Shown: positions 8,644 to 33,599 of the stretch, piece after piece
How the letters are laid out: each line of letters starts with the position of its first letter
Numbering within the stretch: the stretch's first letter is position 1
Origin: Arthrinium phaeospermum
Taxonomy: Eukaryota; Ascomycota; Sordariomycetes; Amphisphaeriales; Apiosporaceae
Length of the DNA: 64,000 nucleotides
NCBI GenBank assembly: GCA_006503535.1
Contig: QYRS01000001.1
Location: 3,162,001 to 3,226,000 of the forward strand
Reading direction: 5' to 3'
The notes under the pieces: model-generated
What the model was told of the DNA's origin: nothing
The model's database searches: none
The model's input: only the letters and a program-made list of their open reading frames with translations
Translations under genes and position numbers: made by a program

Positions 8644-9142
8644 TCGGATAGGAAAGATGAATCTATTGCTTGGCTTCCCTTAAGAATAGGCGAAGAATCC
8701 AATACAACCAAAGACCAAACGCCTGGATGAACTGGGGAATACTCCCGCAGGAACTGTCGAACAGGGGGGCCCTGGCATAATGATCCCAGCAGAGTAGTTG
8801 CCTGTGGGGTGGCACCACCTCGAGTTACCCAACAGGGGATAACTGTTCCCTATATAGCTCACCAATGACAAGTTCGTGGAGCCACTACATTTAGTCGCGC
8901 GTTTGATGAGCAGGGAAGCCTCACTGCATAAGTTGACTGGCGGGAGAAGACGTAACCAAAAGAACATGAGTATCTCCGTGTTGTCTTTTACGTAAAAAGA
9001 GAGCCAAGTTGGCCTAGGCCAGGGTTCACGATAATTGAACTTCATTGTCCATATCTCAAGGTCATACTACGTTTACCAAGTTCGCAAGTTGGCCAGTTGA
9101 ACAGTACGCGTTCCAAATTTTCACTGGAAAGAATACTAGGCA
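8644..9142. other. Promoter region of the GliT-like gene
   Basis: Non-coding. It contains the first exact copy of the cluster palindrome (8809-8818), about 325 bp upstream of the next start codon. Nothing else is recognised. Confidence 0.5.
8809..8818. promoter_or_regulatory. Cluster palindrome GTGGCACCAC, copy 1
   Basis: Inverted half-sites GTGG and CCAC with a 2-nt centre. It lies 325 bp upstream of the GliT-like start codon and is the leftmost copy in the window. Confidence 0.6.
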
Positions 9143-10138
9143 ATGTCTTCAGGAATGGACCTCACTCGCGACGTCCTCATCATAGGCGGCGGGCCAGCAG
9201 GTCTCGCTGCGGCCTTGGCCCTGTGCCGCCAGAACCACAACTTCATCATCTTTGACTCGGGCAGCTACCGGAATAGGTTCGCCACGGAGATGCACATGGT
9301 CTCGACCTGGGACCATCGGCCGCCCAGCGAATATCTGGCGGCCGGTCGCGCCGAGCTCACCCAACGATACCCCGATCAGTGCAAGTTCGTGGACAGCGAA
9401 GTCGCCACCATCAAGCGACTCCCAGGGACACCCAGTACCTTCGAAGCCACCGACGCCGAGGGCAACCAATGGCGGGGCCGCAAAGTCATACTGGCCACGG
9501 GCGTGCGCGATCTTCTACCTTTCATCGACGGGTTGGAGGAATGCTGGGGCCACGGCGTCGTGCACTGCCTTCTGTGCCACGGCCACGAGCAGAGCGGGGC
9601 CGAGTCGGTGGCCGTCCTCGCCCTGGACGCGTTCGCGGAGCCGTCGGGGGTGCTGCGCGTGGTGCGGTCTTGCAAGCAATTCGCGAAGCGGGTGCGCATC
9701 TACACCAACGGCAACACGCGGGTCGCGACGCAGCTGCGGCCGGTGGCGGCCAACGTCGCCGGCTGCGATGTGGTGGCGGGCGTCATTGAACGTTTGGAGA
9801 TGGTCGAGGGCAGCCCCAAGGGCGATGGGCATGGGGCGGAACGGGTTCATGTGGTGCTCGAGGACGCCGAAGAAGGGGTCCTCGCTGAGGAGCATGCGCA
9901 CGGCTTCGCCATGTATCATGCGGGGACGGAGCAGGCGAGTTCGCTGGTGGAGGAATTGGGTGTACAGCTCGACGATGCGGGGGATATCAAGCTCGGGGCC
10001 TTTGCGGAAACGTCGCAGCCTGGGGTTTTCGCGGCGGGCGACTGTGCTTCGCGGCACAAGTTTGTTTCCATTGCGTCGGGGTCGGGGCTGTTGGCAGGGG
10101 ATGGTGCGGCGCAGCAGTTGCAGGCGGAAGGTGTTTAG
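9143..10138 (+). CDS. GliT-like thioredoxin-reductase-family flavoprotein (dithiol oxidase/reductase)
   Basis: A single exon encodes 331 aa, the usual size of GliT/TdiR-type enzymes. The N-terminal FAD-binding fold is clear (VLIIGGGPAGLAAAL, residues 11-25), and the second FAD motif GVFAAGDC is near the C terminus. The redox pair Cys142-Leu-Leu-Cys145 lies in HCLLCHGHEQ, matching the CxxCHGxE signature of the fungal dithiol oxidases that form disulfide bridges in gliotoxin-type metabolites. The second Rossmann segment lacks a clean GxGxxG, also usual in that subgroup, so it more likely uses O2 than NADPH. It sits at the left end of the cluster and has the cluster palindrome upstream. Alternatives are a generic FAD/NAD-binding oxidoreductase or another cyclisation or oxidation step. 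No other sulfur-inserting gliotoxin-type gene (glutathione transferase, C-S lyase, dipeptidase) is seen here. Confidence 0.85.
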   Translation: MSSGMDLTRDVLIIGGGPAGLAAALALCRQNHNFIIFDSGSYRNRFATEMHMVSTWDHRPPSEYLAAGRAELTQRYPDQCKFVDSEVATIKRLPGTPSTFEATDAEGNQWRGRKVILATGVRDLLPFIDGLEECWGHGVVHCLLCHGHEQSGAESVAVLALDAFAEPSGVLRVVRSCKQFAKRVRIYTNGNTRVATQLRPVAANVAGCDVVAGVIERLEMVEGSPKGDGHGAERVHVVLEDAEEGVLAEEHAHGFAMYHAGTEQASSLVEELGVQLDDAGDIKLGAFAETSQPGVFAAGDCASRHKFVSIASGSGLLAGDGAAQQLQAEGV

Positions 10139-10530
10139 GCTGGCCTATTGAAGTCAGGTACAGGAATGAGATGGAAGATTCGTAGCCTAGGCCCCTGAGG
10201 CTCTGGTCAATCGCATGGGCCTGTATTCAGCGTGTATTTATTTTCATAGCGTTATCTACATATGTAATAACATGATAGTTCAATTGAATGTCTCATAATC
10301 TGTAGCTATTTCGATAAATTTCAGCAGGTTGGAACTGTGTTTTGGTGGCGGATGCCTAGAGAGGCGGCCTAGAGCTCTGAATTGCCTCTGCAGTAAGGCC
10401 GCCCAGTGCTACACGTTATCGACAGTAGCTTCAACCATTACCACACTGATTCCGACACTCTGCCTGACTGTGTATATCGGTTTGATCCTTCGTGGTAGTG
10501 GGCCGCAATACGAAGGCACTGACTCGCGTG

Positions 10531-10540
10531 GTGGTGCCAC
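10531..10540. promoter_or_regulatory. Cluster palindrome GTGGTGCCAC, copy 2
   Basis: Reverse complement of GTGGCACCAC. It lies 467 bp upstream of the hydrolase start at 11008. Confidence 0.55.
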
Positions 10541-10787
10541 CTTGGCCAAGACGTTACGGATTGCAGGTCCTGCATAAACAGGATCCCATCCCAACGCTTT
10601 CGAACTGGACCTCGCGCATCTTCATGAGTTGGCAGCAGTGCAAAGCCCTGTAATTAGGGAGAACGGGCCCGTATGCTTCGGGGCCTCGGGCTTTTAACTT
10701 GTTCGATTCCAGCGTTTGTTCTTGGTTTGACACTTACCCCTGGACTGCGTTCTATGGATAGTATCCGGTGCAAGACGACCTAGTCTG

Positions 10788-10797
10788 GTGGTACCAC
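10788..10797. promoter_or_regulatory. Cluster palindrome GTGGTACCAC, copy 3
   Basis: A perfect 10-bp palindrome 210 bp upstream of the hydrolase start at 11008, a typical distance for a fungal activator site. Confidence 0.6.
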
Positions 10798-11007
10798 TGC
10801 ATCGGCATGACCTCCTTCGGCCCAGATCATGCTAAGTTATCGTCGCGAATTGATGGAAAACAATGTACGAAGAATCCATCTCACGAAATTTCTTTACATC
10901 AAATTACTTTGTACAGAGACTCCTTTATCACAAGTCTTGAACAAAGCCCCTGCTTCTAAGCCCCGCATATACATCTAGACACCTCCAATTCCACCACCAT
11001 TTGCAAT

Positions 11008-11952
11008 ATGTCCACCAACCCTTCAGCCACAGACACAACACTTGAGCTAATCTTGAAGGACGGGAGAAGACTCTGCTATAGTACTTTTGGCGCGAGTGGG
11101 TCAACCCCGGCCGCCTCCGCGCAGCTCCCCACAGCATTCCTCTTCCACGGTTTCCCGGGGTCCCACTACGAAGGCCATGCAGTCCATGAGGCCGCCTCGA
11201 GCCACGGCATTCGGATCATTTCCGTCAGCCGACCCGGGTACGCTGGCTCGAGCCCGGAGCCGAAGCGCACCATCAGCTCCTTCGCACTCGACGTCCTTGA
11301 GCTGGCCGACCATCTCCGCCTCCCGCGCTTCGCCGTCATCGGCATCTCCGGGGGCGGACCCTATGCGCTAGGCTGCATCGCCAAGATCCCCGCCGAGCGC
11401 CTTGCCGGCACGATAGTGGTGTCGGGCATGTACCCCGCGAGCCTAGGCCTCAGCGAAATGATGCTATCGAACCGCGTCATCTTCAACCTGGCCCCCTGGG
11501 CACCGTGGCTCATCGGCTACCTCTTCGACAGCAGTCTCGGGGCCGCCGCGAGGGACGTGGCGAACCCGGAGAAGCTGAAGGCGACCCTCGAGGGGGGTTT
11601 TAAAAGCATGCCGCCCGAAGACCTGCGGGTCGTCGAGGCCGACGGGGGCAAGCTCCTCGACATCTTCACCACGAGCATGCGGGAGGCCTTCCGTGACGGG
11701 GCGGCCGGTGCGGCCTGCGAGGCGGCGCTGTTTGGCAATCCCTGGGACTTTGAGCTGGGCACACTGCCGGTGAGGACGGGGGAGCTGGTGATCTACCACG
11801 GGCGGAAGGATGTACACGTCCCCTGTCGGATGGCCACAGAAGCGGCGGCGGAGATGCGCGGGGCGCAGCTCATTGTCGAAGAGGCCCAGGGGCATACCCT
11901 CGGATTCTGCAAAGCGGATGAGATTATGGGGAGATTAAGACAGATGCTATGA
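11008..11952 (+). CDS. Alpha/beta hydrolase
   Basis: An uninterrupted frame of 314 aa with the full alpha/beta-hydrolase layout. The oxyanion-hole motif is HGFPGS (near residue 48), the nucleophile elbow is GISGG with Ser114, the acid is probably the Asp of GRKDVHVP (near residue 270), and the histidine is in QGHTLGF (near 298). There is no signal peptide, so it is probably cytosolic. The substrate is unknown. Epoxide- or ester-type hydrolysis, or release or trimming of a metabolite intermediate, would fit its position. It lies convergently to the NRPS (3' ends about 660 bp apart) and has two copies of the cluster palindrome upstream, so I place it in the cluster. Confidence 0.85.
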   Translation: MSTNPSATDTTLELILKDGRRLCYSTFGASGSTPAASAQLPTAFLFHGFPGSHYEGHAVHEAASSHGIRIISVSRPGYAGSSPEPKRTISSFALDVLELADHLRLPRFAVIGISGGGPYALGCIAKIPAERLAGTIVVSGMYPASLGLSEMMLSNRVIFNLAPWAPWLIGYLFDSSLGAAARDVANPEKLKATLEGGFKSMPPEDLRVVEADGGKLLDIFTTSMREAFRDGAAGAACEAALFGNPWDFELGTLPVRTGELVIYHGRKDVHVPCRMATEAAAEMRGAQLIVEEAQGHTLGFCKADEIMGRLRQML

Positions 11953-12611: not shown

Positions 12612-15600
12612 CTATTGATCGCCCGCCCGGATTAGGGTCATTTCCTCTCCCGTCTTTTCCAGATCCTCTTCCTTTATTTCCAGCAATGTCGAAACGTCCA
12701 TGTCTCCCTCCGCCGTCACGAGGGCACGCACAACGACATCGAGAACTGCGACAAGTCTCTTTACCTCTTTATCCGCGACGACCGAGTCGGCAAAGTACAC
12801 CATGATGTCCATACTCTGCAGCTCCTTGCCCCGCATCACCGGGGATATGATGACGATGAAAGGCATCCCATTGTCCCAAAACAGGGGCTGGGGTCTCCTT
12901 TCCAGACCAATCCCGCCAGCCGGTGGCTCGGCATACGGATCAACCGCCTGCACAATGACCAATGGCGCCACGTCACAAGCTGCCTGCGCTTCCGGATGTA
13001 ACTTCGCCACAGTCTTGAAGTTGGCCTGCTCGTAGGGTGCGAGACTCACGAGTTGCTCTCGGACATGGGCGATGAAGTCTGATGAGGTTGATCCCCGTTC
13101 AGAGTGCCGCAAACGCAGCGGCAAGTTGTTGACCGTGGGACCAAGCAGATCTTCGATTCCGGGGACCGAGTCGATGGTCCGGCCTGTCGAGACCACGCGC
13201 AGGACGGTATCGGCGGTTCGTAGCTGCTCGTGGAAGGCGAGTCCAAGGGCCGCATACCCCAACTCGGCAGGTGTTTTATACGCACGTACACCGGTCGCGC
13301 CCTGCGGAAGCTGGATACTGTGTCGCAAGAAAGTGTTGGACGAGAGTCCCTGTGCTGTCACCTTGGCGAACGCCCGCGTTGATACCCCGAGCAGAGCGTC
13401 GTGCCAGAACGTCGCGGTCTCGGCACGGCCTTGCTGATGCAGGATCGCCTTCATGAAGTGCCGGAAGTCCACTCTCTGCTCCTGGTCGGTCGCTTCTTCG
13501 CCCTTCCCGTCGGCGAGGCGCGTATACTCGAGGTCGAGCAACGCGAACAACTTATTCAAACTCCAGGCGTCGTATACGATATGGTGCAGCGTCACGACAA
13601 GCCACATCTCGTTAACGATGGTGAAGTGGGTCAACGACTGCCCAGAGCTCAACGTTCGCTTCTGTTCGTATGAGAGGAAGGCGTCAAACTCGGCGGCTGG
13701 GCATTTCGTATGGTGGATCTCGCCAGGGGACCGCAAAACAACCTGGAGAAGTTCGTCCTCAAGAGACACTACGCGGGTGCGCATGATATCATGAGTCGAG
13801 ACTATCCGACGCCAGGCGCGAGCGAGACGGTCTACGTCGACGTTTTCAGGGATCTTGAACACATTCTGCATCCACAGGGCGCCCGGTCGCACAAGACCAT
13901 AGTTGAATAGGTCCCGCTGCGTCGGAGTTACGGGATAGGCGTCGACCACCTCTTCCACCCAGACCCCGCAATCTTCTGCCACCTTCGCCTTCAGCGAGTC
14001 TATGCTCGAACCAGTCGCTGATTCTGGCAGCAAGGAAAAGGCAGGGATTTCTGTGGGTGCCGTACCCTGGGAATCTGGCGTCCTGCCTTCGACCAAGGCT
14101 GCCAGGTCGCTGAGCTGGGGGCATTTGTAGATGTCTTGCACCGTCAGCGATACGTTGATGGTACGTGCGAGGGAAGCCAGCTTGATGGCCACGATTGAGT
14201 CTCCGCCACACTCGAAGAAGTCCGCCTCGACGCCGAAGTCTTCCGGTCCCAGGTTCATTACGGTAGACCACAGGTTATGCAAAAGCTTCTCCACCTTGGT
14301 CTGGGGCGCTTGCAGCTCGCGCTGCGTTGTCAAAGAGAAGCGAGCCAGGCCACCAAATCCCAGGTCGGCAACAAGCGCACGGAGGCGCTTCCTGTCTGTC
14401 TTGGCCGAAGCGTTCAGCGGCATGCTTGTCAGCGCCACGAAGAAGCTGGGGATCGTGAAAGCCGGCAAGACCGAGGAAAGTTTGCTCCGGAGACCTTCGG
14501 TACGTTCGACAAAGTCCCGAAGAGCCTCCTCGTCCTCCACAACAGCCACCTCGTTACGGTTCTGGGGATGACCAAACGATGCCGTGCTCACAAACGCCGC
14601 CAGTTTCGAATCCGACCTGTCCGCGGGGTTCTCAATCATCTCGACGGCTACTTCCAGCCCGACTTGGCCGAGCCCACCCAAAGCGACGCGGATCTTATCC
14701 TCCACGTCTCCAACGTCCACTTTGAGTCCATGGAGCTTCACTTGAGTGTCCTTGCGGCCGAGGAATTGCACGCGACCGCCAGGCATCCAACGTGCCAGGT
14801 CACCCATGCGGTATATCCTGTTCTTGCCTTCACCAAGGAATGCCAGCTTCTCAACAAATGCATGTTTCGTCTTTTCGGGGTTATTGTAATATCCCCCGGC
14901 GATGTTGGGGCCCTCGACGACAAGCTCACCGATGGCCCCGATGGGCATGAGCCGATTGCAGTCTTCGGGATCAACAATCCAGGTCGCGCAACCCAAGGAG
15001 CAGCCGATGTCAGATCCAATATCGGCCGTGGTAAAGTGCGGATGTGCGTGACTCCAGATTGACGTCTCCGCCGGGCCAAACGAGTTGATGAGATGCAGCC
15101 TCGGGGCCCATGTGTTGATGTTGGTGACGGTGGCCGTCTCGCCTCCGTAGAGCAGCGTCCGAAGGGTCGGCACTTTCAGCGGATCCAAAAGAGATGCGAC
15201 ACTGGGAGTCAAAAAGGCCCAGTCGACGCGCATGCGTTCCATCGCTGCAGTTAGGTCGTTCATGTTCATACGCTCCTCGTCGGAGGGGATACAAACCTAG
15301 ACTTGGGTCAGCACTACTTCTCTAGCGCTTTCAAAAGGGATCAGGAAGGCTTACCGTGGCACCGCGTGTGAGCGAGGTGAAGATCTCTCCGATACTGACA
15401 TCCGACGTGTATGCCGTAAACTGCAGGTTCCTTCCACCCTTGTTGTAGCAAAGCGTCTCACCGTGGCCACGCATGCTACTGCAGAACGCTGTATGGTCGA
15501 TCATAATGGCCTTAGGCTTACCAGTACTACCACTGGTGAAAAGCAAAAACGCCAGGTGATCCGGTGTGACAGTGGCCTCGTTTGTTCCTGCCAGGCTGGC

Positions 15601-18600
15601 ATCCACTTTCATGGATGGACCGACACACATGTAACGGGGAAAGCAGTCTTTGACAAGCGCGAGATTTCCCTCACTACAGAGTACGAACTCGGCGTCGACG
15701 TCAGAGACCAACGACTGTAGCACATCTGCCGGCTGCGCCGGGTTCAGAGCGACGTTGGCCGCGCCGACCTTCATCACAGCCATCATGGCGACCACGGCCC
15801 AGAGGCTCTTTTCAAACACGAGAGGCACATGCATTCCCGGGCGTATGCCACAAGAGGTCCACAAGTGGTCGGCCAGGCGATTAGACAGGTCTTCGAGCTC
15901 AAGGTATGTCAACGACCCCTCGTGAGAAACGAGCGCCTCGGCCTCGGGTTGTTCACGAACTCGTTCCCCGAAAAGTTCGTGGATCAAGTCCCTCATCGGC
16001 TCGGGGACGACTCCGTTCCATTCCCGCATCTCTTCGATGTCTTCGGGGGCAGCGAGGTCCAGATCTGCAATACGAAGCACGCTACCGTCGGAGTGGCCAG
16101 ATATTTGGGCCACAATGTGTGTCATCTGGCGGAGGAATCGCTGTACTTCGTCAGGTTTCAACACGTTGTCATCATGGGTGGCGACGAGGTGCAGCTCCTG
16201 TCCCGATACGGTAGCCTCGAGGACCAACGCGCAGTTGTGGTATCCATTGTCTAGCCCAGTGGGCGGCTCGATCTTGAACTGGACCGCCCCGGCTGCCTCA
16301 GCATCCACATTCTGCGGTGCAGATGCGTGAGGTTCGTCGACCTGGACCACGAGTAGACTTTGGGAATCCACGGTAGCCAGGGCCTCGGCGGTATACTGTT
16401 TGATGGTCTGCAGGCCTTCTTGCTCGTATGCCAGCATCTCAGCCGATTCGGCTTGGACCGCGGCAAGGACATCCTCAACACGCGTCTCGCGGGGAATGCG
16501 GACTCGAATCGGGATAGTGGCCAGGGTCGGACCGGCCACTAAGTCAGCCGATGGCAAGAGATGAGATGCGCGTCCATAAACGGTCGAGGCGAAGACAATG
16601 TCGTCGGTGCATGAGTATGCGCCGAGGATGATGGCAAACGCGGTGCGAAGCCACGTCGTTGGGGTAAAGCTCCCCGCATCTACAGTGTCGGGTAGACGAC
16701 TCGTTCTTGTCTGCACGCAGTTGGATCTTGGGCGGAAGTCTGGGCTTGGCAGCTCGGGCCAAGAGAGTCTAGGGAGACCGTCGACATAACGCTGCCAAAA
16801 CTCCCGGCTCTTCTCGCGATCTCTGCTTTCGAGACACTGGATGAAAACGTTGAACTGCGTCAAGTCCGGTGTCGGCATGCCCGCATATGCGCGTCGGAAG
16901 GCCGTCGTTAGAAGAGCGATCATCCATCCATCGAAGATTGCGTGGTGAATTGTCATGACGAAGTGGTCTTTGCCCGTCTTCTGATCCCTGAACAACGCCA
17001 ACCTGAGCATATCGTCTCCGGCCTGCATCTTGTCTCTTGTGTCAAGCTTGCGGTACTCCTCCAAGCCCCGCGCCTTCCTCCACCGTGGCTTCGATCGCAA
17101 CACCGCTTGCATCAGGCGGATGGTGCCGTCATCCTTGGCTAACGGAAAGAAGCGCGTCCTTAGCACCGGCCAATCGTCCAGCACCGTAGACCATGCCTTC
17201 TTGAATCGAGCCTGGTCAATGTCGGGTGACAGGGTGTGTACCATCTGGGCGACGTAGGTGCCACGGCCGTCTTGCGACAGGGCTAATAGCCCCTCCTGGA
17301 GTGGTGTGCAGGGATAGATGTCCTCGACGTCACCCACATCGACTCCAAAGTACTCTGCGGCGGATTCGGCCGCCCCATTATCAGTTGATGCAGTACCAAC
17401 CATGGCAAAGGGAGCTGGGACCGCGACCGTGGTATCATCCGACCCTTCGAGAGCTGCCTCAGCAAGCCCCCGTTTATCGTCTACCACGACGACGGCCTGT
17501 GCCATCTCGCCCAGAGTCGGTGCCTTGAAGATTTGCTCGACGGATACCTTGAGGTTGTGACGCCCGGCTAGCGAGACGAGACGCATGGCCGATAGCGAGT
17601 CGCCGCCTACCTTGAAGAAGCTATCCCTCACGTCCAAGTCAAGCTCACGTCCGAGGGTAGCAGCCCACAATCGTGCGAGAAGCTTCTCCATGACCGTACC
17701 GGGTGCATTCAGCTGTCTGGAGGAAGACTGGGTACCTAGGCGAACGAGCTCCTCGGTCGGCACCATGGACGCGAGCATTTTCAGTACTTTGCGGTCCGTC
17801 TTGGCGGATGCCGTGAGGGGCATCTCGCCCAGCGGAACATAAGCAGCCGGCACCATATGACTCGGGAGCACCCTCTTCAGAGCGTCTTCGAGGCCATCTA
17901 GCGCTTCTTGCAGAGGCGCTGGGACCTCATGTGAAAGAAGCGAGAGCAAGCTTTCGGTCTCCGAGCCTGACTTTGGTGGGGTGGCATTGCCGGCCGCGAG
18001 GACGGGTTTCTTTGGGGCAATGAAGGCTGCTAGAATCCGTGGCGATCCGGCAGGGTGGGGGTTGACAACATCGACCGCGACCATCATCTCGTCCGGAACG
18101 TGGCGACGAATTTGGTGCTCAATCTCTCCAAGCTCGACACGTAAGCCGTTGAGCTTCACTTGGTGGTCCCGCCGCCCAAGGAACTGTACCATGCCATTGG
18201 GGAGGAACCGCGCAAGATCGCCGCTCCTGTATAGCCTCATGGATTTTCGGTCAGCCGGCTTCCAAACGGGGTCCGACACGAAGGTCGCCTGCGTCTTCTC
18301 TGGCGCATTCAGGTAACCAGCTGCGACGTTTGGTCCATCAGTCAGCAATTCGCCTATGGCCCCGATGGGCAAGAGCTTGTTGTAGTCGTCGGGATCAGTG
18401 ATCCATGTCGCACAGCCAACGCCATAGCCGATGTTACTGCCAATATCACCCAGTTCTACGGGGCGCGGGACACAATGCGTCCAGATGGAGCACTCGGCTG
18501 GGCCGAAGCTATTGATCAGATACAGCGACGGGGCCCAGGTGGCAAAGTTCTCGGGCGATGCCGTTTCTCCACCAAACACCAGTGTCCTCAACAACGGCAC

Positions 18601-20244
18601 CTCGGAAGGCCCTAGCAAGGTCGCGACGCTTGGCGTGAAGAATGCCCAGTTGACGCCCAGGTCGCGCATAGAGCCGGCGATGTTGTTTTTGCGATCCCAC
18701 TCGGATGGGACGCAGACACAAGACCCGAGAGACAGGGAAGTGAAGATCTCTCCGATGCTTACGTCAGAGGTGTAGGCCGTGTACTGGAAGTTGCGCGAGC
18801 CTGGCCCCGTTGAGAAACGGAGAACCTCGCCGTGCCCTCTCATGCTGCTGGCGAAGGCCTTGTGGGGTATTAAGATGCCCTTGGGCGTACCCGTCGAGCC
18901 AGAGGTGAAGAGGACGAATGCAGTGGTGTCGGGAGATATCGTAACCTCGGTGCTGAGACGGGGCTGAGGTGGTCTGGCAGAAAGGGCTCGAAGCGTGTTG
19001 GCGTCTAGGACAACGTTGCGGCGACCGAACCCGGAAGCCAGGTCGCGGTTTTGCGCACTACTGACCACGATGCATTCTCCCATGCCCGTCACGAGGTTGG
19101 CCAGGCGCTCGGGTGGTTGTGCTGGATCCAAGGCGACACTGGCGCCGCCCGCCTTCAGAACCGCTAGCATCGCCACGATAGCAAGACCGCATTTGTTGAA
19201 CACCAAAGGTACGTACGAGCCCTGCTTGACACCAACGGAGCGCAGCAGCCTGGCGAACTGCTCGGATACCCTGTCTAGTTCCGCATACGTCCATTCGCCG
19301 TCGCGGGCGCAGATGGCCGGCTTGTCGGGCTGCAAGTCGGCTCTATCCTCGAAGAGGCTATGTACTGTCCGTTCCAGGGGCTCGGGGACATTGCCGTTCC
19401 ACACCTTGAGCTCCTCCCAGTGGGAGCTTGGGACGTGGTCGATCTCCTTCAGCCTGGTCTCGGGGCTCATGGAGCACGTCTGTTGTAGGACGTACTCGAA
19501 GTGGGATAGAAGACGTTCGACCTGGATGAGTTCGAGCGCAACGGGATCGTAATCCACCTCGACCGAGATCGAGCCGTCGTGGCCCTGGGGTGTGACTACT
19601 AGGACTAACGCGTAGTCATACACGTTCTCGCTTGGTCCCTGTGCGCTTGAGGAACTCACAGTGACCAGGCTCTGGAATGAACATGCTGCCATGCAGTGCT
19701 CATCGATGGCTTTGATGTTATCTTTGCCGTAGTGGCTGTGGGTCGTCATGGCCTCAATCTGCGCCCGCACGTTACGAAAGAAATCTGAAATGTTGGTGTC
19801 GAGAGTGTCTATAGTGACACGCTGCGGCACGACGGCCAAGGCAAGGCCGGATGTGAGGTCCCGGTCGTATGTAGGCAGACCAGCGCCAAAGACGACGTCG
19901 GACCCCTGATACTGGGAAAGGGTCAGAGCCCAAGCTCCGTGTATCCATGCAGCGCGTGATTGAAGGGAATCTTGGGTGGGAAAGTGTATCTGTATGCTCT
20001 TCTGTGTGTGACTGGTTGCCTGGGCGCGGTGCCCGGCTGGCACCTCGGGGAAGCTGGGATTCGGGCAGCTCTGCAGTGTCTGAGCCCAGAAGCTTCGTGC
20101 GGCCTCGGCCTCGGCCTTGTCGGCCGGCTGCTTTTCAAGATGTTCCTCGAATTTGGGGAGGGAGGCATCTTGGGCGACGACGGCGCGAGTGATGGCCATG
20201 TCGTGGGGCTCGGACCGAACAGGTCCCTCTGTTAAGGCGCCCAT
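12612..20244 (-). CDS. Two-module non-ribosomal peptide synthetase
   Basis: Exons 20244-15355 and 15296-12612 are joined in phase 0 across a 58-nt intron (GTAAGC...TCTAG) inside the second A domain; about 2524 aa. Order: partial C (residues about 30-270, no HHxxxDG), A1 (about 283-830; TSGSTGTPKG near 446), T1 (GGDSLSAM near 880), C (about 960-1370; HHAIFDGW near 1100), A2 (about 1400-1920; TSGSTGKPK near 1572), T2 (GGDSIVAI near 1997), terminal C (about 2060-2500; HHIVYDAW near 2205). There is no thioesterase, reductase, epimerase or methyltransferase, so release is probably by the terminal C domain, as in many fungal NRPSs. Hand alignment to the GrsA ten-residue code gives DVGFVGSIWK for A1 and DVGFLGSIWK for A2, so both may load the same or a similar substrate; I cannot name it. 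The first Met of the frame, a true ATG, starts the protein. The palindrome at 20811 lies upstream. Confidence 0.93.
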
Positions 20245-23439: not shown

Positions 23440-23449
23440 GTGGTACCAC
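23440..23449. promoter_or_regulatory. Cluster palindrome GTGGTACCAC, copy 5
   Basis: 231 bp from the terpene synthase start codon and about 380 bp from the P450 start codon. A further TGCCAC follows directly. Confidence 0.6.
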
Positions 23450-23591: not shown

Positions 23592-23601
23592 GTGGTGCCA
23601 C
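23592..23601. promoter_or_regulatory. Cluster palindrome GTGGTGCCAC, copy 6
   Basis: 226 bp upstream of the P450 start codon; shared with the divergent terpene synthase. Confidence 0.6.
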
Positions 23602-23827: not shown

Positions 23828-25490
23828 ATGGATTCCATACATACTCTTCTCGAGAAGAATGAGGGTGTAATCTACCCCCATCGGGCACTCGGGGCAATTG
23901 CTGCCTTGGTAAGTAGCATTCGACTCTGTACCAATTTCTTTTTACTGATGTCGGCTTTTGTAGGTCGTGCTCTACAGGGTCGTCACAACGGTGTATCGGC
24001 TCTACATCCATCCCCTGTCCAAGGTTCCCGGCCCGAAACTCTATGCAGTCTCGAGCCTCCCGTTCGAGATCCAGAACAAAATCAATGGCACCTTTGTCCG
24101 GGACGCGACGGCGTTGCACAAGAAGTACGGCCCCGTCGTCCGCGTATCGCCTGACCGGGTTGTCGTGGACGGGTCGGTGGCCTGGCCCGCCTTCATGCGG
24201 CGGTACAACGAGGAGTTCAGCAAGATCTGGCAATTCTATGGCTTCGGCCCTCTTGCCATCCTTGGCGCCGGCCCCGACGCTCATAAGCGGCAGCGCCGCG
24301 TGATGGCTCATGCCACCTCTCCAGTCGCGCTTGCAGACCAGGAGGTCTATCTCCAGCAGCAGGTCAACAAGTTCGTGGACGTCTTGGGCGAGCATGCGGA
24401 CCAAGACAAACCTATCGACATCATGCTTTGGTTCAACTACCTGACGTTCGACATTGTTGGGGAACTGACGCTCGGCACCTCTCTGGGCTGCCTGGACTCC
24501 CGGGACTCGATACACCCCCTGGTCGGCGTGGTGACGGCCACAACCCGAGACAATGCCCGGAGAATGTTCCTGACGGGCATCCCGCTCCTGGGCCGCATGA
24601 TCCCCATGGCGACGTACATCCTGAGGAAGAAGGAGATCGACAAGATCCTCGACATGCAGCGCCACATGGACGAGCAGGCCGAGGCGCGGATCGCGCTGGG
24701 CACCGACACCCGCAGCGACCTCATCACCTACATGCTCCGGGCCAACGCGGAGAACAAGGGCAAGGGCATGAGCCACGAGGAGATGCTGGTCAACAGCCGG
24801 GTGCTGCTCCTCGCCGGCGGGGAGACGACGGCCACGGCTCTGTCCGGCTTCGCCTTCCACATCACCAACGACCCCCTCGCCTACCGGATCCTGGCCGACG
24901 AGATCCGCGGCGCCTTCGCGTCGCCCGACGCCATCACCATCCGCGCGACGAGTCAGCTGCTGTATCTGTGCGCCGTCATCGAGGAGACGCTGCGGATCTA
25001 CCCGCCGGCGGCGGACACGCCTCCGCGGGTATCGCCCGGCGCCGACGTTGGGGGCTATTACCTCCCCAAAGGTGTAAGTGCCAATCTTTTCCTCTTGAGT
25101 CATGACTTAACCGACGCTAATGTTGTTCCATTCCCGCAGACAATCGTGTCCGTCTACCAGTGGGCCACCACCCACTCGGCCGAGCACTTCACCGACGCGG
25201 AAACTTTCGCGCCCCAGCGCTGGCTGCCCGACTCGCACGCGCTGTACGACGCCAAGTTCTCCGGCGACAACAAGGCGGTCTCCAAGCCCTTCTCCGCGGG
25301 GCCGCGGGACTGCACCGGCAAGATCCTGGCCTACGCCGAGATGCGGCTGGCGATCGCGCGGCTGTTGTGGCACTTTGACTTTGTGCGGGAGCCGGGGCAG
25401 GACGACTGGATCGCCGAGCAGCGGGTCTTCACGCTGGCGGAGAAGGGGCCCCTGATGATCAGGCTCCGGCGGCGGGCGGGGGTAGTGTAG
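23828..25490 (+). CDS. Cytochrome P450 monooxygenase
   Basis: Exons 23828-23908, 23964-25073 and 25140-25490 (introns of 55 and 66 nt) give 513 aa. An N-terminal hydrophobic segment is followed by a proline-rich hinge (HPLSKVPGPK near residue 43), typical of an endoplasmic-reticulum-anchored class II P450. Oxygen-binding helix I reads AGGETTAT. The ExxR motif is ETLR (368-371), and the heme loop FSAGPRDCTG places the thiolate ligand at Cys455. It resembles the fungal secondary-metabolism P450s that oxidise terpenoid or peptide scaffolds. It is divergently paired with the terpene synthase, so oxidation of its product is the simplest role (inference). An antisense frame across the whole gene is a codon-bias shadow. 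Confidence 0.92.
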
Positions 25491-25850
25491 GGGGCATGGT
25501 AGGAAAGGGGGGGGGAGGTGTTGATGGGGGGCTCTGAGCAATTGGCAGTCACAGTTTCTGGTTGCAGGATTGGATAATCTTTACTAGTAGAATTTCCACT
25601 ATGATGTACGAACAGTTTACGTAAAGACTGCCTTCTATCATCCGATATCAATGCTGTTGCATTCGGACTAGTCGTTCCCAAAGAACCGAATAGCGAGAAC
25701 TCTAATATTTATACTTTCTATCTAGAGAAACAGGGGGTTGCGTCTATGTAATAATGGATATTTACGTAAAGTACACCAGGGGTGACCTTGTTACTCATTA
25801 CACGCTCCTAGAAGCCCTTTGTCTGCATCTTACATAACCAACTCTCTACA
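25491..25850. other. Convergent 3' region of P450 and bHLH genes
   Basis: About 360 bp, AT-rich after 25540. No gene is seen; it serves as the 3' end of both neighbours. Confidence 0.5.
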
Positions 25851-27080
25851 TCAACTCCTGCCCGCCACGAAGGATGGCAGCTGCAACGCCCGCTGGGTCG
25901 CCTGCATCCGCTCCACCAGCGCCTCGATCTGCTCCAGCATGATCCCGTTCTCCTCCTCAAGCTGCTGGACGTACTCGACGGCCTCGGCCAGGACCTCTGC
26001 CTTGCTCATCCTGGTCGCAGGGTTGGCTGCAGTGGTGGTGGACGAAGATGCAACTGTGGTGGAACCACCACCACCACGACCGTCTCCTGCTGCTGTTGCT
26101 ACTCCACTATCGGTGGTGCTACCATCATCGCCCGTAGGGGCTTGGCAGTGACGGCGTTTCGGGCGTTTTCGCGACTCAAGACAGACTCGCAAAGCCTCGA
26201 TCTTGTCGTTAAGACTGACCCGGTACCGCTTCTCGACCGCGGCGTGGGGGCGGTGCGGCTTCTGTGTGTCTCGGGGTGAGGGTGACTGCGAGGGCGATGG
26301 TCGAGGAGAGGCGGAGTCCCTGTCAGTGCTAATCCTGGGTCTTTTGTTTCTGCTGCTGCTATGGTTGCTGGTATTTTCGCCGGTGTTGATCACTGGTGGA
26401 GGTGAAGGCGCCAGCGCCGGCGCCGTTGCTACCATGATGGTATCTGCAGGCAATGGGATGGTATCTGCAGGCAATTGCGGCGGCGACGGTTGTTGTCTCG
26501 GCGTGCTGGCTGTGTAGTAATCCATAGCGGTATCCCCAAAGCCCGGCTCAAAATCCAAAAACTGGAAAGAGTTGGAGAAGTCGTAGTCATCTAAGGAGTT
26601 GTTGCTGAATGGATCACCAGGGGTGAGCGGCGTGCTCGATGCGTTGCTGCCTGCCTCGAAGTCGAGCTGTGGCACTGGGAGTTGCGGACTATTGTGACAG
26701 GCGCTCCCGGCGCCGGCGTGCATTGATTGAGCGCTGCTGAGGAGCAGCACGGCATTCTTGAGTGCCTGCACATAGCGAGCCTGCCCAGTGGTGCTGCAGG
26801 CATGCCCGCAGTGGCTGGCGGGGGAAGTGCTGTCGTGATGAGACGAAGGGCCCGCCCAGTGCTGTGAAGGTGGTGTGGTGGTAGTGTGGTGGTGGGCATC
26901 GTGATGACGAATTTGCGGTGCAAGATGGCGTTTCTCGGGGGACCCGCCCGGGAACATGTCGAAACCTAGCCCTCCGAGACTTATAAGAGCCTCGAGCGAC
27001 GCCTCCAGCTGCTCTTGCCGGCTAGGTCCAGTTCCACCCGCCTCGGCCACCGCATTGAACGAATGGGAGGGCAGAGACAT
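25851..27080 (-). CDS. SREBP-type bHLH transcription factor
   Basis: A single frame of 409 aa from the first true ATG (27080). The frame stays open upstream only through a TTG-initiated stretch. The first 250 residues are low-complexity (His, Thr, Ser, Pro). The basic region begins at His279 (HAAVEKRYR). His, Glu and Arg are the usual DNA-contact residues, and the Tyr before the last Arg is the hallmark of the SREBP subgroup, which can read sterol-regulatory-type sites as well as E-boxes. The helix-loop-helix has a long loop, with helix 2 (MSKAEVLAEAVEYVQQL) near 355-372 followed by a leucine-zipper-like coiled coil. No transmembrane segment is present, so unlike true SREBP it need not be membrane-released. 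It lies in the middle of the cluster and is the best candidate for its pathway regulator. A TATAAAG (27298-27304, minus strand) lies about 220 bp upstream. Confidence 0.88.
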   Translation of the reverse strand: MSLPSHSFNAVAEAGGTGPSRQEQLEASLEALISLGGLGFDMFPGGSPEKRHLAPQIRHHDAHHHTTTTPPSQHWAGPSSHHDSTSPASHCGHACSTTGQARYVQALKNAVLLLSSAQSMHAGAGSACHNSPQLPVPQLDFEAGSNASSTPLTPGDPFSNNSLDDYDFSNSFQFLDFEPGFGDTAMDYYTASTPRQQPSPPQLPADTIPLPADTIMVATAPALAPSPPPVINTGENTSNHSSSRNKRPRISTDRDSASPRPSPSQSPSPRDTQKPHRPHAAVEKRYRVSLNDKIEALRVCLESRKRPKRRHCQAPTGDDGSTTDSGVATAAGDGRGGGGSTTVASSSTTTAANPATRMSKAEVLAEAVEYVQQLEEENGIMLEQIEALVERMQATQRALQLPSFVAGRS

Positions 27081-28400
27081 GATAGTACTCCGGCCACCAG
27101 CTTCGTTTGCGACCGAGTAATATGGTTGGTTGATACGAATTCTGCTGCGTGCCTCCAATAGAAAACCAACAAGACTTGGGACGAAAGCGGCCGGCTAACT
27201 TTTGGGTTTTCTCGCTGTCCGATTATTGAAACTGTGTTCTAGTTTCCCGTCCCAACCAAGACCTGCAAAAGTATTGCGCCACGTTATGCTGCCGCTTCTT
27301 TATACTGATGTCCCTAAACCTTCTCTTCTTGCTTCCCTCTCGCTTCGCTCCCGCTCCCGCTGAGCAGCATAACAAGGGTGGAGCCCGGTATAGGACTAAC
27401 GTTTGGTCGCTCTAATTGGGCGCGCCGTCTGAGCCCGGATCACAAGAGAGAACGTGCCAGCATCCCCATGGAGTATAGCGGTTTCGTGATTGGCCGGCGC
27501 GGGACCTCTGGCTGCCAAGGATCTCCCTCCGTCGAGTTCATGGGAAGGCCCAGCTTGGCAGCTACCGCTGCTTTCCCAAAGCCTCAGAACCATGATATCG
27601 GGCCACAAGCGAACTCTGAACTCTGCTGGGAAGTTTCGCCGTCTCATCTGGCGTGCCAAGCTGGACATATACTCAAATAGACTTTGGCCTGCAAACTTGG
27701 CAGGGGGCCCGGGCTTGCCAATGCCTATGACACAGCCACGTCGGTCACGGTGGCAGGCCGTACGTAACCCGGTTACTCGGTGCTTGACGCCGGCCACTGA
27801 AATCGAGCGCACTAATCGCGGGACTTGCCTAGGGGTCCCATACTTGCTCTCGGCGAGCACTCCGCAGTGACCCGGGGCCCCACGACAAGGGCTTGGCCCG
27901 CCCCCAAAAAAGACCCGAACAGGTATTTGATCTAGATTGTTCAGTTAGAAGTAAAGTCGGAAGTCTAGAAGGGCCCGCCTGAATCAATCATATATGCGTT
28001 CGCATGGTACGATTGTGCGCCACGTGAAACATTTGTCTGACCCGGGTCACAAATTCTAAAGTTATCGTGATCCTGGTCAGTGTCTCCATACTGACTAACT
28101 GCTGCTGGCAGTTGGCGGCCAAGGGCATACGACAGGCAATCCTTGGCAGTGGCACCACCACGAGACAACCGCTGAGTCGGCACACCTGGCCAGCCACGAA
28201 GTCAGAACAACGCAACCATCGAAGAAGGACAGAAGAGGAAACACACCCGCAACGACGATGGAACCAAACGATTGGCCGATTGCCCTGGGGAAGGGGGCAA
28301 GACCATGTTATAAGACCCCGGCTGCTGCAGACTAACCCAGGCCGTCTTATCAGATCAACCCCATCGATCCATTCGACTTTGAACGGCGACCAACATCATC
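27081..28400. other. Divergent promoter region, bHLH/MFS
   Basis: About 1.3 kb without a supported gene. It contains the cluster palindrome 28149-28158 near the MFS gene and TATA-like sequences for both sides (27298-27304 minus; TTATAAG at 28308 plus). Confidence 0.5.
28149..28158. promoter_or_regulatory. Cluster palindrome GTGGCACCAC, copy 7
   Basis: 243 bp upstream of the MFS start codon at 28401, with a TATA-like element between them. It is about 1.07 kb from the bHLH start. Confidence 0.6.
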
Positions 28401-30732
28401 ATGCAAGACAGCACTCCCGCCCAAGAAACTCGAGAGAAGGTCGTCATGTCTGAACTCCCGGGAACAGACGTGACCTCTGACAGCAAACCCCACGCCCTGC
28501 CATCTGAACATACCGTGCACCAGAGCGACGACAATGACTCGGAAACTTTGGCCGACAGCATAGAGTACCCGTCGATGTGGAAGGCCATGCTGATAGTCTC
28601 GGGGCTGTTCATGGGCGTCTTTCTCGTCGCCCTCGATCAGACCATTATCGGCACCGCCATTCCCAAAATCACCGACGAGTTCAAGACGATCCAGGTTCGT
28701 GCCTGGAGTGCAAACAACCCAGATCTTTTGCCCGCGACTCATTTTCTCGGCCAACTTGTTCATTTTTCTCGTGCCATGAGCTGACCATAAAAACACCAGG
28801 ACGTGGGTTGGTACGGCAGCGCTTACTTCCTCACGAGCACCGGTACGTGTTATCCGGATGTCCCCCCCTGGTCCCCGCCCCCGGTCTCCCGCTGACTCGC
28901 GCGCGTGTTTCCCCAGCCCTTCAACCGTCGTACGGTCGCATCTACGTTAGCTTCGACGTGAGTTTCTCCCTTTCCTCGATTGCCTTTCAAATCTACCGGG
29001 CCGATCCATATTTGGGCTGACTCGGGATGCTTTCAATTTCCCCCGGTCACAGTCGAAGTGGGCCTTTCTGCTGGCCATCTTCCTCTTCGAGGTTGGCTCC
29101 CTGGTCTGCGCCGTGGCACCGTCCAGCCCGGTCCTGATCGTTGGTCGGTAAGTTCAGCCAAGAATGCTACATACCTACTCAACGTGGAGGGGGGACGGCA
29201 ATCTGATCTGCTCCCCCCGTTGATCGGTCCCCGAAGATTGCTGCTGGCCGGGCTAACCCTGCGTGTGCAGCGCCATTGCCGGCCTGGGTGTGGCCGGGAT
29301 TTTCTCCGGTTGCACTGTGATTACCTCGTTTGTTGGTGAGTGTCTCCCGCCCCCATTAGAGTTCTCCCCAACAACAACAACAACAACACCGTGACATACA
29401 TACCTCGTCTCGTCGTCTCGTATGCTAGCTGACTGACTGACCGCTTGGGACAATAGTCCCCCTTGAGAAACGCCCTATCGCCTTCAGTCTCTTTGGTGCC
29501 GTCTGGGGCGCCGCGTTTGTGGCCGGGCCCCTCTTGGGGGGCGCCTTCACCGATCATGTCACGTGGCGGTGGTGTTTCTATATCAAGTATGCTATATCCC
29601 GATAAGCTTCCCCCTCCCGTTTCGGCGAACGTTTCGGGGGTCCACTGTATTGACTTTGTGTGTGTTTCTGTCTTCTAGCCTTCCCATCGGGGCCGTCTCC
29701 GCCGCCGTCGTGATGCTGGTGCTCAACCCCCCGCCGCGACCCAAAGACGAGCCTGACAAGTCCATCCTGGTCCGTCTGCGCGAGCTCGACCTGGCCGGCG
29801 CCGCCCTGCTGGTCGCGGCCGTGACCTGCCTGCTCCTGAGCCTGCAGTGGGGCGGCAAGCAGTATGCGTGGAGCGACGGCCGCGTCGTCGGCCTGCTGGT
29901 CGGCTTCGCCCTGCTCCTCGTCGTCTTCGTCGGCTGGCAGGCCCGGCTGGGCGACCGGGCCACGCTGCCCCCGCGCATCATGCGCCAGCGCACCGTGGCG
30001 GCGGCGTCGGTCTTCGTCATCATGTTCAGCGGCTCCGCCGTCGTCTTCATGTTCTACCTGCCCATCTTCTTCCAGAGCATCCGCGGCTCGACGGCCATCA
30101 TGTCGGGCATCCAGATGCTGCCCATGCTCCTGGGTTTGGTGGTGGCCTCGGGCATCGTCGGCGCCCTCATCTCCTGCTTCGGCTTCTACACGCCGTTCCT
30201 CATCGGCAGCACCGCCCTCTTCGCCGTGGGCGCCGGGCTCATCACGACGTACCACGCCGCCATGCCCGACGCGACCTGGATCGGGTTCCAGATCCTGGCC
30301 GGCGCGGGGATGGGCGCCGGGTTCCAGATCCCGCAGGCGGCGGTGCAGACGGTGCTGGCGCAGGCGGACATCCCCGTCGGGTCGTCGGCCCTCATCTTCT
30401 TCCAGAACCTGGGGGGCTCCCTCTTCGTGTCCGTGGGGCAGGCCGTGTTCCAGAACGGGCTGGCGGCGGGGCTGCGGGAGCTGGCGCCCGAAGTGGACGC
30501 GGGCCTCGTGTTCGCGACGGGCGCGACGGGGCTGAAACAGGCCCTCGAGAACGCGGGGCAGGCGGCACAGTGGCCCGCGGTGCTGCTCGCGTATACGCGC
30601 GGGCTGCAGGATGCGTTCAAGGTCGCCATGGGGCTCGGGGTGGGGGGCTTCTTGGCGTCGCTGTTCTTTGAGTGGCGGAGCGTCAAGGAGAAGAAGGGCG
30701 GGGGCGAGGGGACCATGGCGCACGTGGGGTGA
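28401..30732 (+). CDS. MFS exporter, 14-TM drug:H+ antiporter type (DHA2-like)
   Basis: Seven exons: 28401-28694, 28800-28842, 28917-28957, 29053-29147, 29271-29335, 29457-29586 and 29679-30732, giving 573 aa. A hydrophilic N-terminal arm of about 60 residues precedes the first helix. Family motifs are present: [13 protein letters not shown] after TM1 (motif D1 of 14-TM transporters), [12 protein letters not shown], and GPLLGGAF before WRWCFYINLPIG (motif C and the DHA2-specific block). The closest known types are toxin and secondary-metabolite efflux pumps of fungal clusters. It is probably in the plasma membrane and exports the cluster product or gives self-protection. The cluster palindrome lies 243 bp upstream. 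The early exons are very short (41-130 nt) whereas the last is over 1 kb; all junction frames agree. Confidence 0.9.
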
Positions 30733-32247
30733 GAGTTGGATACGCACATGGGTTTGGTTTGATATGCCGTAGCCGATAAGGCTTTCTCGACCGTACATTG
30801 TCTCTGGTTTGTGTTCGCCGAAGGGGTTTCAGGTTATAATTAGATAGCCGTCAGTCATTGTTTATGGGAAGTTACTTTTTTTCTATATGCATTTCGTTGA
30901 GCGATTGGTCGTTTGTAGGACTCATCGGACGTTGGTTATGTTTCCAATGCCATTAAACAAACGAATCATACCGACTTGGCCACGGGTATGATCTTGGTGA
31001 GCTTGGTATGTGATGTTTCGAGTTCCGCGTGTGGAAATACAAGGGCATCGCTGGTATTATAATAACATGCAGCTCCTGGTGAAAACATAGTTAATATGAA
31101 GGCATCATTTGGTATCATCATTATGCCTGTAAAGGCTTCACTCGGCAAAAGCTGCATCTCGAGGTGAGACCCGAAACCATGGTATTGAACCCCTTCTCAA
31201 GAACTTCTAGACTCTTATGCCATGTGTACGTCTTTCGTTTCTGCAGGGGTGGCTCCGTAAATCAAACAAACGTTAAAAGTAAAACTAGACACAGCACACC
31301 TTGTGCGTATGTATAGTCGTATAATGCTTGCACCACGTTGAAACGCTTGCCAAGCTTATGGTTTCAATGAATAAACTATCTGAGGCTACAGATTAGATCC
31401 TGCGAGTGCCACGAGGTCCGGTTAACGTTGCAGCTACCCCTGGAGGTCACCAACTACCCCAGGGTAGTCCATCTTCAAGCAAGGTCCCTTTTCCCATCGC
31501 CGAATGAGAGCTTCTCATGCAAGCTGCGACACCTCTCGCGGCGGAATAATCTCCTAGACCATGTGGACAAAGCACGTGCCACCCGTTTCGGGAGCCCAGT
31601 GTCGGGGACCCAGTGTCGGGGACCACTCAGCCAGGTGTCCGAGCCAACTTTGGTCCGCACCCCCGGGCTCGGACAGCAAAACCGTCCAATGCATACACCC
31701 CCACGGACTTGGCAACCGGGCTCCTTGCCCGCCGGAGACCGTCGACGACCAACCTTGGGGCTAGACTGAGGAACGTGGTCCCAAAAATGCGGGTTGAAAA
31801 CACGGGGGTATTTCTGGGCGCGGCCGATTTGGTAGATCATCATGCGGACGGGAGGACGTTGGGGCCCAGAAGGGTCCATTGCGGGTCTCAGTAGTGTCGG
31901 GACTTCAAAGTCTATTTTAACACTTGGTTTAAACATAGTCCCAGGACAGGGGTGGTAGAGTGGCACCAGGGCCCATCCCTGGCAGTGGCACCACCCTCAT
32001 TGGCCACCACGTGGATCTGGACCAAACATCTGGTGATGGGCTACTCTTCGTGCTGTTGGGACATACTTTGAGGTAAAAATCAGTCTTCAGGCTGAAGAGC
32101 TCTAGAGTGTAATACGTTTAATTACTCATATGTAGTCGGGATGTGATGCACTCGTACATCGAGTTGATCAGACCTGTATCACGATGGAGGAAGCACACGT
32201 TGTCATGGTGATAGACTTGAAAGTAATAATAAAGTCGTCTGATTAAT
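30733..32247. other. Intergenic region with an orphan palindrome
   Basis: About 1.5 kb with no supported gene. There is an imperfect 16-bp direct repeat (CCCAGTGTCGGGGA) at 31591-31625, one exact palindrome (31985-31994) and one near copy (GTGGCACCAG, 31960-31969). Confidence 0.45.
31985..31994. promoter_or_regulatory. Cluster palindrome GTGGCACCAC, copy 8 (orphan)
   Basis: The only exact copy with no start codon nearby. The flanking genes both have their 3' ends towards it. A near copy lies 16 bp to the left. It may mark the promoter of a lost gene. Confidence 0.45.
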
Positions 32248-33192
32248 CTAAGTAACAAATACAGTGCTATCCTCATACCCGACATAACTGACAAAGTACT
32301 TGGACGGTTGACCAGCCTCTTCCGGCTGTAAGCTTATTCGGGGGCGATCAATCTTCCGCCCGATCCTGACTTGTATCCATTTCCGAACTGCAGCGCCGCA
32401 CACAACCATTATCTCCTCACTATTGCTATCTTGAAAGGCTAGTGCTAGCATAGTCCGAGCACCTCTGTCCTCAATGTGCGACACCAGACAATTCAAATGT
32501 GTCGTTGGGGTGGTGGTGATGCGCGGCGTTGGGTGGTGATCACAGTGAACCTCTCCATCCGCCAAGAGCCATCGGGAAACCAGCTCGTTTTCCCACAGCT
32601 CGAGTGCCTCCTCCAGGATGTGGAGAAGATCATGGTGCAAGTTGGCGCAGTCCCGAGAGAACGGCTGCATTTTCATCTGGAGGATTTCTCCTCGCACTCC
32701 CACCGGCCATGGGGTGGGCGCCTGCTGGTCGGATGTTGAGCCTATTATAAACGTTTCCTGTAGCTTCAGTTAGCCTCAAGAGTATTGTAATCACACAGTT
32801 CGTAAGAATCGTTTGCTCACAGAAGAGTCCCTCTCCGCCGCTTCTGGTCCCCGGTAGCCACGCAGTCGACCATTCTTGAGTCGTGGCCTTACCGCCGACT
32901 TCTTGATATGTCTGTGCAAGTCAAAAAACTCTACACTCTGTCGTCTGAATTAGCAGAATAGGATGACTAGAGTGGACTGGAGATTCTTCATTCTTACAGA
33001 CTCGAACACCCGCTGGATGGTACTCCCCGATATACCGTGGCCGGTAACCTTGAAAGCGCCATATGTAGAGACGGAGGTCAAAAGGGCATTGATGGCTTTG
33101 CTCCGCTCTGCAGAGGGATCAGTATACTGGCTTCCCTCTGTAAGCTCCTCAAACTCGTAGAAATGCGATATGTCGATAGTTGGGATGCCCAT
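32248..33192 (-). CDS. 2-oxoglutarate/Fe(II) oxygenase-like protein, probably degraded
   Basis: Exons 33192-32998, 32937-32821 and 32757-32248 give about 273 aa, in frame. The N terminus is a good DIOX_N domain of the isopenicillin-N-synthase-like family: PTIDISHF at residue 4 and GAFKVTGHGI near 47. Exon 3 opens with a recognisable block (ETFIIGSTSDQQAPTPWP). From the catalytic region on, however, it diverges. The expected HxD pair before the TLLFQD-like strand reads SHIEDRG (His-Ile-Glu), and the distal histidine and RxS motif are not identifiable. The protein also ends about 60-80 residues earlier than usual. I read this as a decaying gene. An unrecognised intron in exon 3 is the main alternative. 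The palindrome at 33374 is in its promoter. The start is the ATG at 33192. Confidence 0.6.
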
Positions 33193-33599
33193 ATTCACGA
33201 CTCGTTCGCCAAGATTGATTACTAATGCTCTTCGTGTTTACCCCGGTCAAGAAGCAGTACTACGGAGAAGTGGGCACCGTGGGGGATAGATTGGTAAATA
33301 AAACAGTAGCAGGTAATATCAACCATATTGGGATGCGGTTGCAGTGTACGTTTATGTGGTGTGGTACTCTCAGGTGGCACCACCCGAAACGAGTGGAACC
33401 CTGGCACTGAACTTTATCATGTCTGCGGGTGGCCATACTCCAGCAAAAAGGGGGGAGGGCTAGTGGGAATCAATAGAGACAATGAAATGTTCAATCACAT
33501 TGGAAGACTAATGGTACGACTACATGCATCAACTTGTGGGAAAGCCCGCGCCCAATCAAGTAACTAAGTTCCAATCCAATTCTTCGCAATATACTTTCA
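33193..33599. other. Divergent promoter, oxygenase/hydrolase
   Basis: About 400 bp between divergent start codons, with one exact palindrome at 33374-33383. No gene is seen. Confidence 0.5.
33374..33383. promoter_or_regulatory. Cluster palindrome GTGGCACCAC, copy 9
   Basis: 181 bp upstream of the oxygenase-like start and 216 bp upstream of the hydrolase start at 33600. It is the rightmost copy. Confidence 0.6.

Follow-up and report, generated by a model that had tools for sequence, protein, structure and literature searches.

Nine exact copies of the ten-base palindrome GTGG-YR-CCAC lie between positions 8809 and 33383 of a 64,000-nucleotide stretch of Arthrinium phaeospermum DNA (the window), where they mark one natural-product cluster containing a nonribosomal peptide synthetase (NRPS) and a terpene synthase. 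The evidence supports the palindrome as a cluster-specific operator. The cluster also encodes a basic helix-loop-helix (bHLH) protein of the sterol regulatory element-binding protein (SREBP) type that lacks a membrane anchor, and we consider it probable that the nine palindromes are the operators of this one cluster, read by a homodimer of that protein; binding, homodimeric mode and activation are all what we infer from sequence. The same palindrome is present in a Fusarium graminearum cluster of different chemistry, and the two clusters seem to share operator and regulator class.

Palindrome sites in the window and across the genome

The original prediction had placed nine intergenic copies in this region, eight of them about 180–570 bp upstream of start codons, with about 0.25 copies expected by chance, and had taken them to mark a co-regulated gene set. 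An exact scan of the window for GTGGYRCCAC agrees with it, returning nine sites at the predicted positions, with the predicted CA/TG or TA centres (seven and two sites, respectively; CG in none), and no others. Shuffled versions of the window held 0.29 copies on average (maximum 3 among 100 shuffles). All nine sites are intergenic though 71% of 8809–33383 is genic (P ~1.4 × 10−5), as judged on our own gene models after four low-scoring ones (8005, 36925, 41866 and 48841) had been dropped, two MFS models joined and a tentative dioxygenase span added. From motif edge to start codon, eight of the nine sites measure 181–566 bp, several of them in divergent promoters. The placing of these eight fits a co-regulated set; the ninth, at 31985, has no gene start nearby. 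The sites are as follows.

8809–8818, no strand: operator GTGGCACCAC, 336 bp before the GliT-like gene
8876–8885, no strand: possible second site GTGGAGCCAC, centre not YR, from the free-centre scan
10531–10540, no strand: operator GTGGTGCCAC, 467 bp before hydrolase 1
10788–10797, no strand: operator GTGGTACCAC, 210 bp before hydrolase 1
20811–20820, no strand: operator GTGGCACCAC, 566 bp before the NRPS gene
23440–23449, no strand: operator GTGGTACCAC, divergent terpene synthase/P450 promoter
23592–23601, no strand: operator GTGGTGCCAC, divergent terpene synthase/P450 promoter
28149–28158, no strand: operator GTGGCACCAC, 242 bp before the MFS exporter gene and 1068 bp before the bHLH gene (divergent)
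31985–31994, no strand: orphan operator GTGGCACCAC, with a near-copy, GTGGCACCAG, at 31960
33374–33383, no strand: operator GTGGCACCAC, divergent dioxygenase/hydrolase 2 promoter

When the two central bases were left free, the window scan returned 11 sites, the additional ones being GTGGAGCCAC at 8876 and GTGGAACCAC at 26059, the latter within the bHLH coding sequence. A purine precedes the palindrome in eight of the nine sites and a pyrimidine follows it in all nine, giving the full consensus RGTGGYRCCACY. Past the ten bases, apart from these edges and a TGGCA shared before 28149 and 31985, the flanks vary among sites; because they mostly differ, the sites do not resemble a duplicated promoter. 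The motif also emerges from an unbiased count of all words of the form 4 + gap + 4 in the cluster intergenic DNA (nine segments, 7558 bp): GTGG-N2-CCAC leads the palindromes (10 copies, spread over seven of the nine segments), the runner-up palindrome having 4 copies and the largest count in 30 shuffles being 3. The nine leading gapped words of any kind are all pieces of this motif. Single GTGG/CCAC words number 93 in the same DNA versus 69 by shuffling, and 20 of the 93 belong to the ten palindromes.

The orphan operator and its near-copy, 25 bp apart (31960–31994), stand in 1.5 kb without a recognised gene and are possibly the relic of a lost gene's promoter. Site 31985 falls within a 173-codon stop-to-stop stretch that has no Pfam match.

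Genome-wide (48.45 Mb), GTGGYRCCAC occurs 198 times, versus 262 for the same pattern read backwards. By centre, 108 of the sites are CA/TG (66 + 42), 32 are TA and, by subtraction, 58 are CG; the clustering test covers the 140 CA/TG and TA sites and leaves out the CG-centred ones, which were partly listed. Nine of the 140 fall in the 24.6 kb of the cluster, where 0.07 would be expected (Poisson P ~7 × 10−17), and the cluster is the only place in the genome with at least three such sites within 25 kb. Equal frequency outside the cluster had been named in advance as the outcome that would undo the operator claim, and the scan did not find it. The 101 CA/TG sites outside the cluster comprise 60 of the GTGGCACCAC-Y class and 41 of the GTGGCACCAC-R class. 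In a sample of 42 of the 60, taken in list order with the GTGGCACCAC-R sites left out, 22 fall within open stretches 150 or more codons long, as do 222 of 420 random positions from the same loci; the cluster has one of nine (Fisher P 0.03). The remaining 18 GTGGCACCAC-Y sites stayed outside this count: 14 beyond the sample and four, in tight pairs, that were inspected separately, of which two are in a long open frame. Since the sampled outside sites show the same share in open stretches as random positions do, they look like chance occurrences.

Two broader arrangements were considered and rejected. A global regulon does not fit the lower count of the palindrome than of its reversed control, nor the random-like placing of the sampled sites. 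A second motif cluster fails because the two tightest other pairs, on contigs C5 and C12, sit in open reading frames (463 codons; 459 and 226 codons).

The cluster bHLH protein and SREBP half-sites

The bHLH protein (409 residues, encoded at 25851–27080) is the only HLH protein found in the cluster, and its Pfam HLH match (6.3 × 10−9) is above the cut-off. Its basic region reads HAAVEKRYR. Because tyrosine here replaces arginine, a hallmark of fungal SREBPs (PMC6329520), the protein is by sequence of the SREBP type, and the earlier nomination of this bHLH as regulator becomes a better fit for that reason. Its PDB sequence matches are Tye7 (1 × 10−4), Hms1 (1 × 10−4) and SREBP-1a (0.02), followed by weak ones to a variant surface glycoprotein (0.011) and the bHLH protein Myf5 (0.95). 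HAAVEKRYR is unchanged in all nine close homologs (P0001–P0009), whose whole-protein identity goes down to 46%. Nine of the ten homologs share the longer stretch RPHAAVEKRYRVSLNDKIEALR without change, P0010 having RPHSVVEKRYRAGINEKIEALR instead, and VEKRYR is present in the window protein and all ten. The residue after the histidine is asparagine in Tye7, Hms1, SREBP-1a and the tyrosine-type proteins on contigs C7, C9 and C1 of this genome; it is alanine or serine in the cluster subgroup.

A canonical SREBP such as SrbA carries C-terminal membrane segments and a DUF2014 domain, and the cluster protein has neither: hydropathy gives no membrane anchor (highest 19-residue value 1.1), the protein ends shortly after the zipper, and the DUF2014 protein of the genome lies on contig C7, beside another bHLH. 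That locus (C7:1503315–1505684) encodes an SrbA-like SREBP in which a bHLH with HNAIEKRYR adjoins DUF2014. The genome has 12 HLH matches, four of them of the tyrosine type, the cluster's own included.

Printed SREBP sites are ATCANNTGA and ATCANNCCA (PMC6329520), and the contacts are made with ATCAC and GTGG half-sites (PMC8431614); the printed sites join ATCA with a TGA or a CCA half around NN. GTGG-NN-CCAC would be the missing combination, with two of the alternative half-sites inverted around the same spacer. SrbA, Hms1, Cph2 and Tye7 share with the cluster protein the basic-region tyrosine, the GTGG/CCA half-site and the NN spacer. Their sites are ATCANNTGA or ATCANNCCA, whereas the cluster palindrome has GTGG in both halves, so that the GTGG half and the spacer of an SREBP site are present and the ATCA half is absent. 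Ordinary SREBP sites are unsupported as the cluster signal: in the cluster's intergenic DNA (7.6 kb), TCANNCCA occurs twice, TCANNTGA three times and ATCANNTGAT not at all, with shuffle means of 4.9, 2.4 and 0.16, respectively.

We propose that the bHLH protein would bind the nine palindromes as a homodimer, each subunit recognising GTGG, the alternative half-site that SREBPs use for one half of the sterol regulatory element. Two such half-sites, inverted around the usual NN spacer, would yield GTGG-NN-CCAC. Promoter binding would then switch on the GliT-like gene, both hydrolases, the NRPS, the terpene synthase, the P450, the exporter and the dioxygenase together, sites in divergent promoters serving both genes. 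This logic resembles that of GliZ-like zinc-cluster regulators, in which a single regulator encoded within the cluster recognises a palindrome present in most of that cluster's promoters; those proteins have a different fold and a CGG-type site. Such a reading would complete the half-site set of SREBP-type proteins (ATCA/ATCA, ATCA/GTGG and GTGG/GTGG), and a specificity change of these proteins thereby becomes testable.

The Fusarium parallel and possible alternative readers

The operator proposed by the original prediction is supported, but as a motif it is not new: 5'-GTGGtgCCAC-3' was reported in 2014, with citation of a 2009 paper, in promoters of F. graminearum cluster C02 (PMC4198257). 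By the text of that report, 12 of 16 C02 genes have the motif (the table gives 11 rows, 10 with a tg and one with a ta centre); agmatine raises the expression of 11 of the 12, and expression of all 12 is lower in the fgp1 mutant (PMC4198257). The NRPS FGSG_15673 is GRA1 of gramillin (PMC10455296), and Gra2, a bHLH protein regulating gramillin production (PMC10056406), has been named a transcription factor (PMC10967133). C02 and the present cluster have in common an identical ten-base palindrome, TA variant included, in many promoters of one metabolite cluster, whereas their chemistry differs: a fatty acid synthase and a seven-module NRPS in C02, a two-module NRPS and a terpene synthase here. 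CG centres are found in none of the 20 sites listed in both clusters together, compared with 58 of the 189 sites that the genome has outside the cluster (Fisher P 0.0013), the background being the Arthrinium genome, not that of Fusarium.

The terms bHLH and helix-loop-helix are absent from the main text of PMC4198257, and a partial literature search found no printed link of the palindrome to Gra2, bHLH, SREBP or SREBP half-sites, although one may exist in print. No Fusarium protein is named among the 10 matches of the bHLH homolog search. As far as that literature search tells, what is new is the interpretation by SREBP half-sites, together with the parallel between the two clusters. The Fusarium palindrome, for which the literature examined names no reader, would gain a concrete candidate class and a structural reason. 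More tentatively, an anchor-free SREBP-type bHLH subfamily, located in metabolite clusters from two or more fungal orders, might have switched to a GTGG-only site, forming a portable module that controls unrelated clusters, that of gramillin included. If this is true, the palindrome could find and delimit such clusters in any genome.

Several points weigh against a bHLH homodimer as the reader. No start codon is modelled within 1.5 kb of site 31985, the start codon of the bHLH gene itself is 1068 bp from the closest site, and the lack of CG centres, taken for this cluster on its own, is weak (Fisher P 0.06 for 0 of 9). In published tests, fungal SREBPs favour ATCANNCCA or E-boxes, and a symmetric GTGG/GTGG SREBP site was not found in the part of the literature examined. 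In Fusarium, FGSG_15673 (GRA1), the C02 neighbour +2, has no marked palindrome in the table, and C02 holds a nitrate-regulatory-protein-related gene, FGSG_11654, whose product is another possible reader (PMC4198257). Finally, CACGTG is raised in the cluster intergenic DNA (7 copies versus 1.75, above all 200 shuffles):

12401, 12543, 20886, 23528, 28021, 31573 and 32008: CACGTG in cluster intergenic DNA, by shuffle comparison

Set against DNA outside the cluster, the excess is slighter (7 in 7.6 kb versus 10 in 23.6 kb outside; P only 0.045). CACGTG may be a further bHLH input, and the bHLH might read these E-boxes as well as, or instead of, the palindrome.

The operators could be real and their reader another protein, such as a zinc-finger or zinc-cluster factor encoded elsewhere, with the bHLH acting indirectly or through CACGTG; we regard this as unlikely. 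The window offers a candidate in the Fungal_trans factor at 42796–45481, ~9 kb past the last site, but this gene lies beyond the motif border and has no site of its own. The CACGTG excess would suit such an arrangement, as would the C02 response to loss of Fgp1 and the nitrate-regulatory-protein-related gene there. Fgp1 is, we take it, the same Wor1-like protein as FgSge1. However, FgSge1 binds TAARGTTT, not the GTGG palindrome (PMC13205826), and with another reader both the half-site match of the bHLH and the Fusarium bHLH parallel would be coincidences.

Still less likely is a heterodimeric reader, in which the cluster bHLH pairs with a second tyrosine-type protein, be it the SrbA-like one on C7 or those on C9 or C1. 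The other tyrosine-type proteins of the genome would supply partners, and the commonest centre, CA/TG, is asymmetric (seven of nine sites). Yet the arms are symmetric in all nine sites (by construction of the pattern) and the TA centre of two sites is symmetric as well, which suggests two equal subunits; moreover, SrbA-type proteins favour the ATCA half, and the TCANNCCA sites are not enriched. That the nine copies reflect chance or a duplication artefact, such as promoter duplication or a dispersed repeat, is scarcely credible: the flanks of sites 28149 and 31985 do agree in a few bases (TGGCA ahead of the palindrome, C behind it), but the remaining flanks differ, the shuffles hold at most 3 copies, and the genome-wide Poisson P is ~7 × 10−17.

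Cluster genes, borders and relatives

Gene models were made on the window with a small splice-aware script and named by Pfam; they are approximate, and their lengths match Apiospora marii proteins for the NRPS (2524 versus 2525 residues) and the bHLH (409 in both). The gene order is GliT-like, hydrolase, NRPS, terpene synthase, P450, bHLH, MFS, dioxygenase, hydrolase.

9155–10138, + strand: GliT-like thioredoxin-reductase-type oxidoreductase (Pyr_redox_2; TIGR01292 below cut-off; CLLC)
11008–11952, + strand: alpha/beta hydrolase 1 (Pfam and gene model)
12612–20244, − strand: NRPS, 2524 residues, two exons, two adenylation domains (Pfam and gene model)
21441–23209, − strand: terpene synthase, model approximate (Terpene_syn_C_2)
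23828–25490, + strand: cytochrome P450 (Pfam)
25851–27080, − strand: SREBP-type (tyrosine) bHLH, one exon, proposed regulator (HLH)
28401–30732, + strand: MFS exporter, model approximate (MFS_1 below cut-off on one exon; gene model)
32250–33192, − strand: 2-oxoglutarate dioxygenase (DIOX_N 8 × 10−14; C-terminal part not recognised)
33600–34655, + strand: alpha/beta hydrolase 2, last gene with an operator (Pfam and homology search)

The best Pfam stretches of the NRPS run adenylation–thiolation–condensation–adenylation–thiolation–condensation, a further condensation stretch being counted without an assigned place, and the protein is 95% identical to its A. marii counterpart. Among the matches listed, relatives in Pyrenophora have ~33–36% identity, and a 1170-residue Penicillium expansum protein is 58% identical over 43% of the query. 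In the dioxygenase, the C-terminal HxD...H part was not seen in the reading frames of 32250–33192; the gene may be truncated or lack its middle.

The palindromes were also predicted to delimit the cluster, and on the right-hand side the border that they set is supported: the genes modelled rightward from 34995 (MFS, 34995; SDR, 37676; FAD enzyme, 39223; Fungal_trans factor, 42796) have no site. The sites thus allow an edge of this NRPS/terpene cluster, for which no known product was found, to be set from sequence. The homolog searches (10 matches for the bHLH, the best 120 of 2789 for the NRPS and 64 for the hydrolase) agree with this border, as the NRPS, the bHLH and hydrolase 2, the last motif-bearing gene, seem to travel together. 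Locus tags place the bHLH gene three genes from the NRPS gene in A. sp. TS-2023a (PG984_003647/003650), A. hydei (PG997_013365/013362) and A. phragmitis (PG994_013921/013918); in A. arundinis (PG987_007992/007989), the same distance separates it from hydrolase 2. Nine of the ten bHLH matches are on contigs equal in listed size to those of NRPS or hydrolase matches (P0009 has no partner), equal size suggesting linkage without proving it. P0010 pairs in this way with the NRPS P0035 (both 26806), which is only 66% identical, so that their host is probably outside Apiospora. At least five further same-size contig pairs (64223, 30149, 42827, 34073 and 106704) join NRPS and hydrolase without a listed bHLH. 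The nearest named hydrolase hosts outside Apiospora are Diaporthe and Gnomoniopsis.

On the left flank, the ~6 kb from 1890 to 8004 have no confident gene model and a GC content of 0.49, versus 0.57 in the cluster. A different palindrome, TTTACGTAAA, has three copies in the window, two between the P450 and bHLH genes (25616 and 25761) and one before the GliT-like gene (8987).

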